Assembly (NCBI GenBank): GCA_016223085.1
Contig: JACRPS010000010.1
Span: forward strand, 186,001 to 250,000
DNA: 64,000 bases
From: Chloroflexota bacterium
GTDB lineage: Bacteria > Chloroflexota > Anaerolineae > Aggregatilineales > Phototrophicaceae
Direction: 5' to 3'
The translations under genes were made by a program, and so were the position numbers. The notes under the pieces were generated by a model. The model was not told where the DNA came from. It saw only the letters and a program-made list of their open reading frames with translations, and did not search any database. This document shows positions 8,300 through 9,909 of this stretch, one piece after another (the first letter of the stretch is position 1; the number at the start of each line of letters is the position of its first letter).

Positions 8300-9619
8300 T
8301 TATCCCAGGGATTTCAGACCTTCGAAGAAGCGGGTGATCGCTTTTTCGGTGCGTTCCGGCGGAAGCGCGTAGGAGAAGCGAATCCAGTCCGCGCCAGCCT
8401 GCGAGAAATAGACCCCGGCCACAACCGCAACGCCGAAGTTCTCCGCCAGGTAGTTTTGCAACCCTTCGGAATCGCCCAGGTTGCCCGCAGCGATGTACCT
8501 GCCGCAATCTACGAAAGCGTAATAACCGTCGCCCATGATGTGCGGGATACGAAAATTCTCCAGTTCGCGGCGCAGCACCTTCCGGCTTTCGCGGCACGGT
8601 TCGATGATGCTGGCAGCAGCTTTCGCAAAGCCCATCTCGTAGGCCGCAATGGCAACCGCCTGCGCGTAAAAGCTGGGGATGACGCTGTGCGACGCCTGGC
8701 TGGTGATGTAATCCACAACCTTCTTACCGGCCAGCAGATGACACGAGCGAATGTTGGATGCGCCCAGGCTCTTGGTGATGCCATCGAGGAAAATCAGGCG
8801 TTCGCGTTCGACGGGGGCGAAGGCTTGCAGCACAGCATTGATGTCCGTCGGTCCGTTATCGGTCACCCAATGATACATCCAGTCGAACAGTACAAACGGA
8901 TAGCCGCTGTCCAGCGCGACGCGGGCGAGAGCAATCTGTTCTTCAACCGGCAGCGTGCGCCCGGTTGGATTGTCCGGCGAGGTAATCAGTAGGCCTGCCA
9001 CCTTGCGGCCTTCACGGGCAGCAAATTCGGCAGTCGCCCTGATGGATTCCGGCGTGTAACGCCAGCCGTCTTCCGGGTGTCCCGGTGCAAGCAGCACGTT
9101 CAGGCCAACCGCATACGGCCCCCAGTTGTAGCTGATCCAGGGCACGCGCGACACCACTAACACGTCGCCCACTTCACCGTTGAGCGCAACCATCGCGGCA
9201 TAGGCTTTTTGCAGGCCGTCGCGCCCGCCCTGCACGAAGACGATATTTTCCGGCCCCCAGCCCGAGGCCGCATCGAGATGCCAATAGGCTTCGGCGGCGG
9301 CCTTGCGGAAAAGGGGCGTACCCCAGGGTTGATCGTAGGCCGTACCGTGCTGAAGCTGTAACTCGTGGGCGCGGTTGAGGATTTCCACCGGCACACCGGG
9401 CAGGCTCGCGCCGCCGTCGCCCTGCGAGGCGTCATAAGTCGGGGCAGCGTCGCCGGCCTTCGCCTTGTATTTCTTCAGCCCGTCGCGGATAAGAAACATG
9501 CGTGACGGCGGAATGGCCTGCATGTGCGCCGGATAGGAGTTGACCGGCACGCGGTTTTCCGCTGGAACGACAAATTCCGGCAGATCAAGATTTATTTGGG
9601 TGGGCGCTTGCGTAGCCAA
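8300..9619 (-). CDS. Class I/II PLP-dependent aminotransferase
   Basis: Pyridoxal-phosphate enzyme of 439 residues, fold type I. Visible motifs are SPDNPTG (cofactor Asn loop), LFDWMYHW (Asp and Tyr region) and GITKSLGASNIRSCHL, in which the Lys is the likely Schiff-base residue and the Arg the carboxylate binder. Its substrate is not clear: it is not an obvious AspC, HisC or Avt. The start is TTG at 9619 with GGAGG seven bases upstream. A leader peptide and attenuator lie directly upstream, so expression is probably tied to supply of one amino acid, which argues for a biosynthetic role. Confidence 0.88.
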   Translation of the reverse strand: MATQAPTQINLDLPEFVVPAENRVPVNSYPAHMQAIPPSRMFLIRDGLKKYKAKAGDAAPTYDASQGDGGASLPGVPVEILNRAHELQLQHGTAYDQPWGTPLFRKAAAEAYWHLDAASGWGPENIVFVQGGRDGLQKAYAAMVALNGEVGDVLVVSRVPWISYNWGPYAVGLNVLLAPGHPEDGWRYTPESIRATAEFAAREGRKVAGLLITSPDNPTGRTLPVEEQIALARVALDSGYPFVLFDWMYHWVTDNGPTDINAVLQAFAPVERERLIFLDGITKSLGASNIRSCHLLAGKKVVDYITSQASHSVIPSFYAQAVAIAAYEMGFAKAAASIIEPCRESRKVLRRELENFRIPHIMGDGYYAFVDCGRYIAAGNLGDSEGLQNYLAENFGVAVVAGVYFSQAGADWIRFSYALPPERTEKAITRFFEGLKSLG

Positions 9620-9660
9620 TATCGGCCTCCGTAAAGTCTGGACACGGCTGACGTGTCATT

Positions 9661-9686
9661 AATAAAAACACCCCTTGCGGGGTGCT
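9661..9686 (-). terminator. Attenuator terminator before the aminotransferase gene
   Basis: On the minus strand CACCCC, loop GCAA and GGGGTG (9684 to 9669) are followed by TTTTTATT (9668-9661). This is a good intrinsic terminator about 40 bases before the TTG start, placed to stop transcription before the gene. Confidence 0.85.
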
Positions 9687-9689
9687 GTG

Positions 9690-9776
9690 TCACATAACGG
9701 GTAGATGTGGCAAGACCCCGCAGCCGGGAGGTGCGGTGGTATTCATGGTGTCATGGATAACAAAAAACGGACGCAT
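9690..9776 (-). CDS. Leader peptide of a transcription attenuator, 28 residues
   Basis: The frame runs ATG (9776-9774) to TGA (9692-9690), with AGGAAG six bases upstream. The peptide begins MRPFFVIHDT and has a DTMNTT stretch (Thr codons 10, 13 and 14), then two prolines. RNA segments inside and after it compete. CCGCA (9736-9732) can pair with TGCGG (9722-9718). TGCGGGGT (9722-9715) can instead pair with ACCCCGCA (9683-9676), which would disrupt the terminator. This is the trp/thr-leader arrangement: stalling near codons 10-14 would free the antiterminator. Thr control is a guess; Met, Asn or Pro are alternatives. Confidence 0.7.
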   Translation of the reverse strand: MRPFFVIHDTMNTTAPPGCGVLPHLPVM

Positions 9777-9805
9777 GGGCTTCTTCCTGAATCGGACTGT
9801 TACGG

Positions 9806-9834
9806 ATTGTGACATGCGCATCAACAACTGTCAA
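9806..9834 (-). promoter_or_regulatory. Promoter for the leader-aminotransferase transcript
   Basis: On the minus strand TTGACA (9834-9829) and CACAAT (9811-9806) are separated by 17 bases. The predicted start near 9799 lies about 23 bases before the leader-peptide ATG. Confidence 0.75.
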
Positions 9835-9909
9835 TGTGCAAGGGGGTTAAAAGGAACTGGCGGTGGTTTGTGCAAGATGCCGTAGGCGACAAAGGCGGCG
9901 GGATGCTGG

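Follow-up and report, generated by a model that had tools for sequence, protein, structure and literature searches.

Described attenuators and the aminotransferase leader

The attenuator of the E. coli thr operon carries a Thr/Ile leader peptide, and attenuators with leaderless leader peptides occur in Actinobacteria. The region described here lies on the minus strand of the window, i.e., the whole stretch of 64,000 nucleotides that was analyzed, and probably is a ribosome-mediated transcription attenuator of the trp/thr type, reading Thr, Asn and Asp codons in front of a likely aspartate aminotransferase gene. It shares with the E. coli thr attenuator a short control-codon peptide, mutually exclusive pairings, a ribosome that would sense charged tRNA, and an aspartate-family end product. 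In contrast to that system, it would control an aminotransferase rather than thrABC and appears to read Asn and Asp besides Thr. The order of parts and the switching logic are those of the trp operon attenuator, the familiar model of the class, from which the leader differs in that several amino acids of one family would be read and in that its ORF runs through segment 2. The leaderless actinobacterial systems are resembled by one group of relatives (group B below), in which the -10 box ends 7-9 nt before the leader ATG in 23 of 43 upstream regions, although phylum, amino acids and target gene are different.

The mechanism as such is known; as far as we searched, the host and the set of amino acids sensed are new, and so are a target that lies at the aspartate node, the presence of a paired leader before aspartokinase, and a start in group B that seems to be leaderless. 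Among the matches listed in open-licence full texts, we found none that describes attenuation in connection with an aspartate aminotransferase, with Chloroflexi/Chloroflexota, with Asn codons or with leaders of aspartokinase genes, and none in which the supply of asparagine and aspartate controls attenuation at the aspartate node.

Architecture of the leader in the window

A first-pass annotation had described a promoter, a Shine-Dalgarno sequence, a 28-codon ORF, an antiterminator and a terminator in this region. Direct rereading of the minus strand confirmed that all of these parts are real and lie where they had been placed (Table 1). Segment 3 overlaps the 5' arm and the loop of the terminator, and the leader ORF extends through segment 2 to just before segment 3. 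The last Thr codon (A-site) lies 15 nt before the first paired base of segment 2. The gene upstream, which encodes a MurA-family protein, is divergent, so that the minus-strand terminator has no preceding gene to end. Thr, Asn and Asp account for 5 of the 28 residues of the leader peptide, which is among the poorer peptides of the set compared below.

Table 1. Features of the leader region and the genes concerned (window positions, except where a contig is given)
Feature	Position	Strand	Basis or remark
TGCACAA element, 40 bp 5' of -35	9868-9874	-	TGCAC[AG]A common among group-A upstream regions
Promoter TTGACA-17-CACAAT	9806-9834	-	sequence: TTGACA 9834-9829, 17 nt, CACAAT 9811-9806
Shine-Dalgarno AGGAAG of leader peptide	9783-9788	-	sequence
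Leader peptide ORF MRPFFVIHDTMNTTAPPGCGVLPHLPVM + TGA, 28 codons	9690-9776	-	sequence; Thr/Asn enrichment in relatives
Proposed control codons GAC ACC ATG AAT ACC ACC (Asp Thr Met Asn Thr Thr)	9735-9752	-	sequence
Segment 1 CCGCA, weakly pairing with segment 2	9732-9736	-	sequence, group comparison
Segment 2 TGCGGGGT	9715-9722	-	antiterminator duplex -18.3 kcal/mol for L001; covariation
Segment 3 ACCCCGCA of antiterminator	9676-9683	-	own-partner duplex energies and covariation
Intrinsic terminator (3:4) and T-run	9664-9684	-	hairpin CACCCC-GCAA-GGGGTG 9684-9669, T-run 9668-9664; conserved
GGAGG before aminotransferase	9626-9630	-	sequence
Regulated gene: 439-aa fold-type I aminotransferase, proposed aspartate aminotransferase	8300-9619	-	TTG start 9619; PF00155; nearest solved sequences and folds
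Aspartokinase gene with its own attenuator, locus L232	G000:C33:6329-7717	-	Met/Thr-rich leader peptide

Conservation of the leader among orthologues

A scan of GTDB genomes yielded 244 aminotransferase relatives, and the best 80 of 244 were kept, down to 57% identity. The window comes from an Aggregatilineales-like genome of the Chloroflexota; a 90%-identical orthologue sits in an Aggregatilineales record, and an orthologue is present in all 17 genus genomes examined. The 97 aminotransferase loci, minus 11 duplicates, provided 86 distinct upstream regions to be read. Group A comprises 43 of them, from the window's genus and L035-L071; group B comprises the other 43 (L072-L114), which are mostly Anaerolineales-like and include three Acidobacteriota.

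Judged by eye, a leader of the same layout precedes the orthologous aminotransferase gene in 66 of the 86 upstream regions (group A, 35/43; group B, 31/43) and is absent from 20. A scripted rule required a terminator closely preceded by the end of an ATG or GTG ORF that had 10-47 codons and contained no fewer than 4, and at least 20%, Thr/Asn/Asp residues; 63/86 upstream regions were positive, compared with 0-2/86 in each of five shuffle sets. The leader of the window falls just short of the 20%. The 66 leaders recognized by eye are the 63 found by rule plus L001, L088, L097 and L103, which have less than 20% Thr/Asn/Asp or were otherwise missed, minus L068, which was judged spurious. This conservation of frame and pairings in relatives supports the earlier reading of the locus as a trp-style attenuator.

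The group-A promoter, TTGACN-17-[CTG]ACAAT, was found in 29 of 43 upstream regions, with a spacing of 17 in 29/29 (16-18 allowed). TGCAC[AG]A is located 39-41 bp 5' of the -35 box in 23 of these 29, the window included, and this TGCACAA-like element is possibly a regulator site. It echoes a TGCACA that abuts the -35 box in many group-A upstream regions. In group B, the -10 box ends 7-9 nt 5' of the leader ATG in 23/43 upstream regions, and the Anaerolineales leader seems to be a leaderless mRNA.

Model R1, built from 15 of the 17 genus leaders, gave one strong match per genome in 17/17 genus genomes, each before the aminotransferase gene (E 1.5e-7 or better, next best 0.0018), including those of G006 and G015, which lie outside the model; 150 candidates per genome were scored, out of about 640-1280 from the first look. 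A regulon with many R1 leader copies was rejected on the basis of this single strong match. The weak R1 matches that were inspected (L132-L137, L139, L167) were also rejected as such leaders: they are terminators, except that L137 is a tRNA-like neighbor, L167 is a stretch preceding a phosphoesterase-like ORF and L136 is a Cys-rich leader. The latter (L136:1037-1108, G006:C454) consists of the peptide MSSAVLVLCCVCCMARRSRGLYC and a terminator before two ORFs that resemble membrane proteins by eye, the second being YeiH-like, and is likely a cysteine attenuator.

Model R2, derived from group B, was applied to 11 genomes of that group and to G000, the genome of the window. Its best sites in the 11 group-B genomes are the aminotransferase leaders by coordinates, six of them outside the model; in G000 it found only a terminator and not the window's leader. 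No such leader was seen by eye in the 350 nt before the homoserine dehydrogenase genes of G000 and G010, nor before one asparagine-synthetase-like gene of G000.

Two further observations concern the collection itself. L053, from a record titled Pleurocapsa minor, a cyanobacterium, has a Chloroflexota-type aminotransferase, a leader and a FabD-like neighbor, and is probably a contaminating bin. The Acidobacteriota loci L093, L098 and L113 have in common a strong hairpin of another kind upstream of the aminotransferase, soon after a TATCCT-like -10 box and without a Thr/Asn leader ORF.

Codon content of the leader peptides

Leader peptides of relatives include MLATNTTTNMDTIVIT, MFGLNTTTNMDTNNIT, MDTHMTTDNTNWDTP and MFSQFVVDTTNTNRNTRTHTV. 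For the enrichment analysis, the longest ATG ORF ending 0-50 nt before the best terminator was taken, a rule that misses GTG starts, overshoots some starts and takes in a few wrong terminators (L068, L106). The 14 of 86 loci without a terminator were excluded from this analysis and from the 2:3 and 1:2 tests below, and shuffled leaders yielded an ORF in about 15/36 (A) and 13/35 (B) cases. Compared with dinucleotide shuffles, Thr was enriched 2.15-fold in group A (z 7.1) and 2.03-fold in group B (z 5.4), and Asn 2.09-fold (z 4.8) and 1.99-fold (z 3.8), respectively. The combined Thr, Asn and Asp fraction was 0.329 in group A and 0.273 in group B, exceeding 100/100 shuffles. Asp alone was 1.3-fold (z 1.2, A) and 1.2-fold (z 0.5, B) above shuffles, which is not significant, and no rise was seen in the leader ORFs for Ile, Lys and Ser, whose codons are A-rich too. 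An excess of Met appeared in group A only and is inflated, since under the longest-ORF rule the true start codon is scored as an internal Met.

Among 14 close group-B leaders, the third codon position is the most variable (0.162 vs 0.039 and 0.084), with 187 non-synonymous against 152 synonymous codon differences, many of them Thr/Asn/Asp/Ile exchanges. Thr codons also help pairing with the G-rich segment 2; codon choice and pairing are thus partly confounded. By this comparison, the putative control codons of relatives specify Thr, Asn and also Asp, and Met as well in some leaders of the window's group. The first-pass annotation had suggested control by threonine or a related aspartate-family amino acid: the Thr-rich peptides agree with it, but it proves too narrow for relatives whose peptides carry Thr and Asn, with Asp.

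Alternative RNA pairings

In group A, segments 2 and 3 pair better with each other than with the partners of other leaders: the 2:3 duplex (n=35) has an energy of -16.22 with its own partner vs -14.38 (sd 0.38) with permuted ones, the best of 5000 permutations being -16.13, and the 1:2 duplex (n=34) has -14.02 vs -12.59 (sd 0.39), best of 5000 -13.99. The own-partner effects are smaller in group B, where the observed means of -16.82 (2:3) and -16.56 (1:2) are beaten by the best permutations (-17.11 and -16.80). Because the leaders are related, these permutations and p-values overstate independence. The 2:3 test left out L068 in group A and L076, L081, L093, L098, L103, L106 and L113 in group B, and the 1:2 test also L070.

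Covariation was examined in alignment A1, with 24 of the 35 group-A leaders, and alignment A5, with 23 of the 31 from group B. Column pair 80:130 of A1, which joins segment 2 to the terminator loop, is CG in 9, UA in 5, UG in 3, AU in 1 and unpaired in 6 of the 24 leaders; as column 130 lies in the terminator loop, this covariation is explained by the antiterminator and not by the terminator. Sliding A1 by +2 columns gave more pair types (11 vs 8) but fewer paired cells. In group B, terminator pair 134:154 is CG in 18 and UA in 5 of 23 leaders, compensatory changes are found in just one 2:3 pair, and CGTTGGTATT of segment 2 is the direct pairing partner of the Asn-Thr-Asn codons AAT ACC AAT CG. 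A terminator and a mutually exclusive antiterminator with covariation are therefore present in group A and more weakly in group B. The pairings and the roughly 2-fold excess of Thr and Asn answer the check that the first-pass annotation had proposed, covariation and leader codon conservation upstream of orthologues. Beyond codon content and alternative pairings, the leader sequence diverges among relatives.

Equilibrium folding of 61 leaders, as distinct from co-transcriptional kinetics, gave a mean P(2:3) that rose from 0.53 to 0.81 once a ribosome occupied the last usable control codon; it was higher in 54/61 leaders and did not rise in 7. For the window leader with segment 4 not yet made, P(2:3) is 0.70 in the free RNA, and stalling a ribosome at the last Thr codon brings it to 0.74. 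For hairpin 1:2, part of the original description, CCGCA can be read and group A has the own-partner advantage, but the hairpin is weak in the window leader. Since the window ORF covers segment 2, the moving ribosome itself probably keeps 2 and 3 apart, which is the likelier off-switch.

Aspartokinase leaders in the same genomes

In three group-B genomes, R2 found a second full-length site before an aspartokinase gene, with peptides such as MCAYLMTTTTTTTSHSCGVLLFE. In an aspartokinase family search of 21 genomes, 17 had one aspartokinase gene preceded by a leader and terminator; the window's genome is among them, with the leader peptide MMNLAACMMTMGMGTSSHRKMRGSFRLP. The genomes left out are G008, G025 and G026, with no aspartokinase of the leader-bearing type over the cut-off, and G027, with a terminator and no Thr/Met leader. 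Such a leader is missing from the ten second aspartokinase genes that scored lower (L240, L243-L251); two of these have a terminator-like hairpin.

The aspartokinase leader peptides are rich in Thr and Met, with few Asn and Asp. In the same 17 genomes, Asn and Asp make up 60/435 residues of the aminotransferase leaders vs 12/424 of the aspartokinase leaders (odds ratio 5.5, Fisher p 2.3e-9); the corresponding counts are 23/170 vs 4/215 in the genus alone (p 8.6e-6) and 37/265 vs 8/209 in group B alone (p 1.3e-4), p-values that overstate independence as the genomes are related. Leader start codons for these counts were chosen by eye. The aminotransferase leader has the higher Asn and Asp content in 17/17 genomes. 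Thr content does not differ between the two kinds of leader (p 0.60), and the aminotransferase leader of G018 has Thr, one Asn and no Asp.

The aspartokinase step is on the way to Thr and Met, not to Asn; aspartate is the one transamination product from which both Asn and Thr are made. The aspartokinase leaders with their little Asn/Asp suggest that the enzyme behind the window leader is an aspartate aminotransferase, rather than one acting on the threonine, methionine, asparagine or homoserine-derived keto acids put forward for assay in the first-pass annotation.

The aminotransferase and its neighbors

The aminotransferase matches PF00155, and its fold and PLP residues fit fold-type I, as they do in other aminotransferases too. 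The top Foldseek matches are the aspartate aminotransferases of Thermus and Phormidium (TM 0.85 on target, 24% identity), and the nearest sequences of solved structure are aspartate aminotransferases as well. N217, D246, Y249, K283, R291 and R414, the PLP residues, are invariant in 36 sequences, as is R133, which aligns with the Lys of the Thermus GGK motif, presumably the residue binding the distal carboxylate. Compared with aspartate aminotransferases of subgroup Ib (Thermus 1bkg/1gck, Phormidium 1j32), the fold, the PLP residues, Trp161 and a basic residue after GG are alike; at 24% identity, the window enzyme, known here from sequence and fold comparison, is about 50 residues longer and has Arg instead of Lys after GG. 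The NCBIfam aspartate aminotransferase cut-offs are not reached (best aspartate transaminase model, 66.6 bits vs a cut-off of 617). The window's genome has 19 other PF00155 matches; of the nine scanned, five resemble amino acid aminotransferases, and for none did any aspartate aminotransferase model among the families shown reach its cut-off.

As the leader appears to read Asn, Asp and Thr, i.e., both branches from aspartate, the enzyme is best explained as, and most likely is, an aspartate aminotransferase supplying the Thr and Asn branches. Homoserine dehydrogenase and asparagine-synthetase-like genes are present in G000, so that Thr and Asn synthesis from aspartate would be possible there. 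PF00733 asparagine synthetase had no match in G017 and G019, two group-B genomes with the leader; homoserine dehydrogenase had none in G020.

In many Anaerolineales, in Geothrix and in L070, the aminotransferase is followed by a fusion of about 940 aa (e.g., L097:4308-7118) that joins a glutamate-cysteine-ligase/YbdK fold to an M20 DapE/ArgE-like domain. The Foldseek TM of its ligase domain is 0.67-0.68 with YbdK and 0.70 on target with a Salmonella homologue. Judged by eye, the fusion is the downstream ORF in 30 of the 75 loci with a downstream ORF listed, some being cut by contig ends. The 17 genus genomes have no match reaching its first 520 residues, yet keep the aminotransferase and its leader.

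Alternative explanations

The hairpin could be a chance or unrelated terminator that sits between divergent genes and regulates nothing, and the single sequence would allow this: the fold of the window leader has a z of -0.57, 50/200 shuffles fold equally well, and in the 4 kb scanned there are 2 promoter-like sites vs 1.4 expected and 2 terminator-like sites vs 3.8 expected. On the window sequence alone, the parts are not beyond chance, and it is conservation in relatives that lends them credibility. That conservation, the cognate pairing and the codon bias contradict a chance origin, which was rejected on the comparative data and is very improbable. Almost no credence is left for the idea that something other than the short ORF is the sensor, in a T-box or a metabolite riboswitch. 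A 5' leader with alternative hairpins might fit one, and relatives do carry riboswitches elsewhere (Rfam: fluoride in L097, glmS in L050). No Rfam release 15 family (leaders, T-box, riboswitches) reached its gathering score in the window, and thus no Thr leader model matched; nor did any over the leaders of eight relatives, and matches at E up to 10 were only chance-level. A T-box or known riboswitch was rejected for this reason, the features shared among leaders being codon content and pairings.

Two other explanations accept the attenuator. It could respond chiefly to threonine, like the E. coli thr leader, with the Asn/Asp codons incidental and the enzyme elsewhere in threonine-related metabolism. 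Thr is the strongest signal in both groups, and the G018 leader would suit such a sensor, but the Asn enrichment in both groups and the 5.5-fold odds of Asn and Asp over same-genome aspartokinase leaders, which are Thr leaders with little Asn, make mainly-threonine control unlikely. Also rather unlikely is the proposal that the enzyme is not an aspartate aminotransferase but works in a pathway drawing on aspartate-family amino acids; in Anaerolineales its partner there would be the downstream ligase/M20 fusion. The frequency of this fusion and the unreached NCBIfam cut-offs speak for it; the genus genomes, with aminotransferase and leader and no such match, speak against it, as do a leader content that suits the aspartate node and nearest solved folds that are aspartate aminotransferases.

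Proposed mechanism and significance

A translatable leader ORF is predicted between promoter and terminator, and its control codons exceed chance; that they name the enzyme's own products depends on the function proposed for it. With the leader ORF, codon bias and alternative pairings supported by comparison of relatives, we infer stalling, termination and the enzyme's substrate. RNA polymerase would start near 9799, and a ribosome would translate the leader. With charged Thr-, Asn- and Asp-tRNA plentiful (in this group perhaps also Met-tRNA), the ribosome would pass the control codons and cover segment 2, segment 3 would pair with segment 4, and transcription would stop around 9664. Shortage of any one of these tRNAs would stall the ribosome at 9735-9752 and leave segment 2 free to pair with segment 3 before segment 4 is made, so that the polymerase could continue into the aminotransferase gene.

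On balance, we lean towards a two-tier network of ribosomal attenuation in Anaerolineae, in which Thr, Asn and Asp codons (perhaps Met) would control the aminotransferase, and Thr and Met codons aspartokinase, the first committed enzyme. The Anaerolineales leader would be leaderless, with its Asn-Thr-Asn codons serving as segment 1, and the enzyme would represent an undescribed branch of aspartate aminotransferases. The paired aspartokinase leader acts as an internal control. If this is true, leader codons would predict the substrate of an enzyme that curated models leave unassignable, and an uncultured lineage would gain a readable regulatory code, in which the leader codons name the end products of the enzyme behind them.
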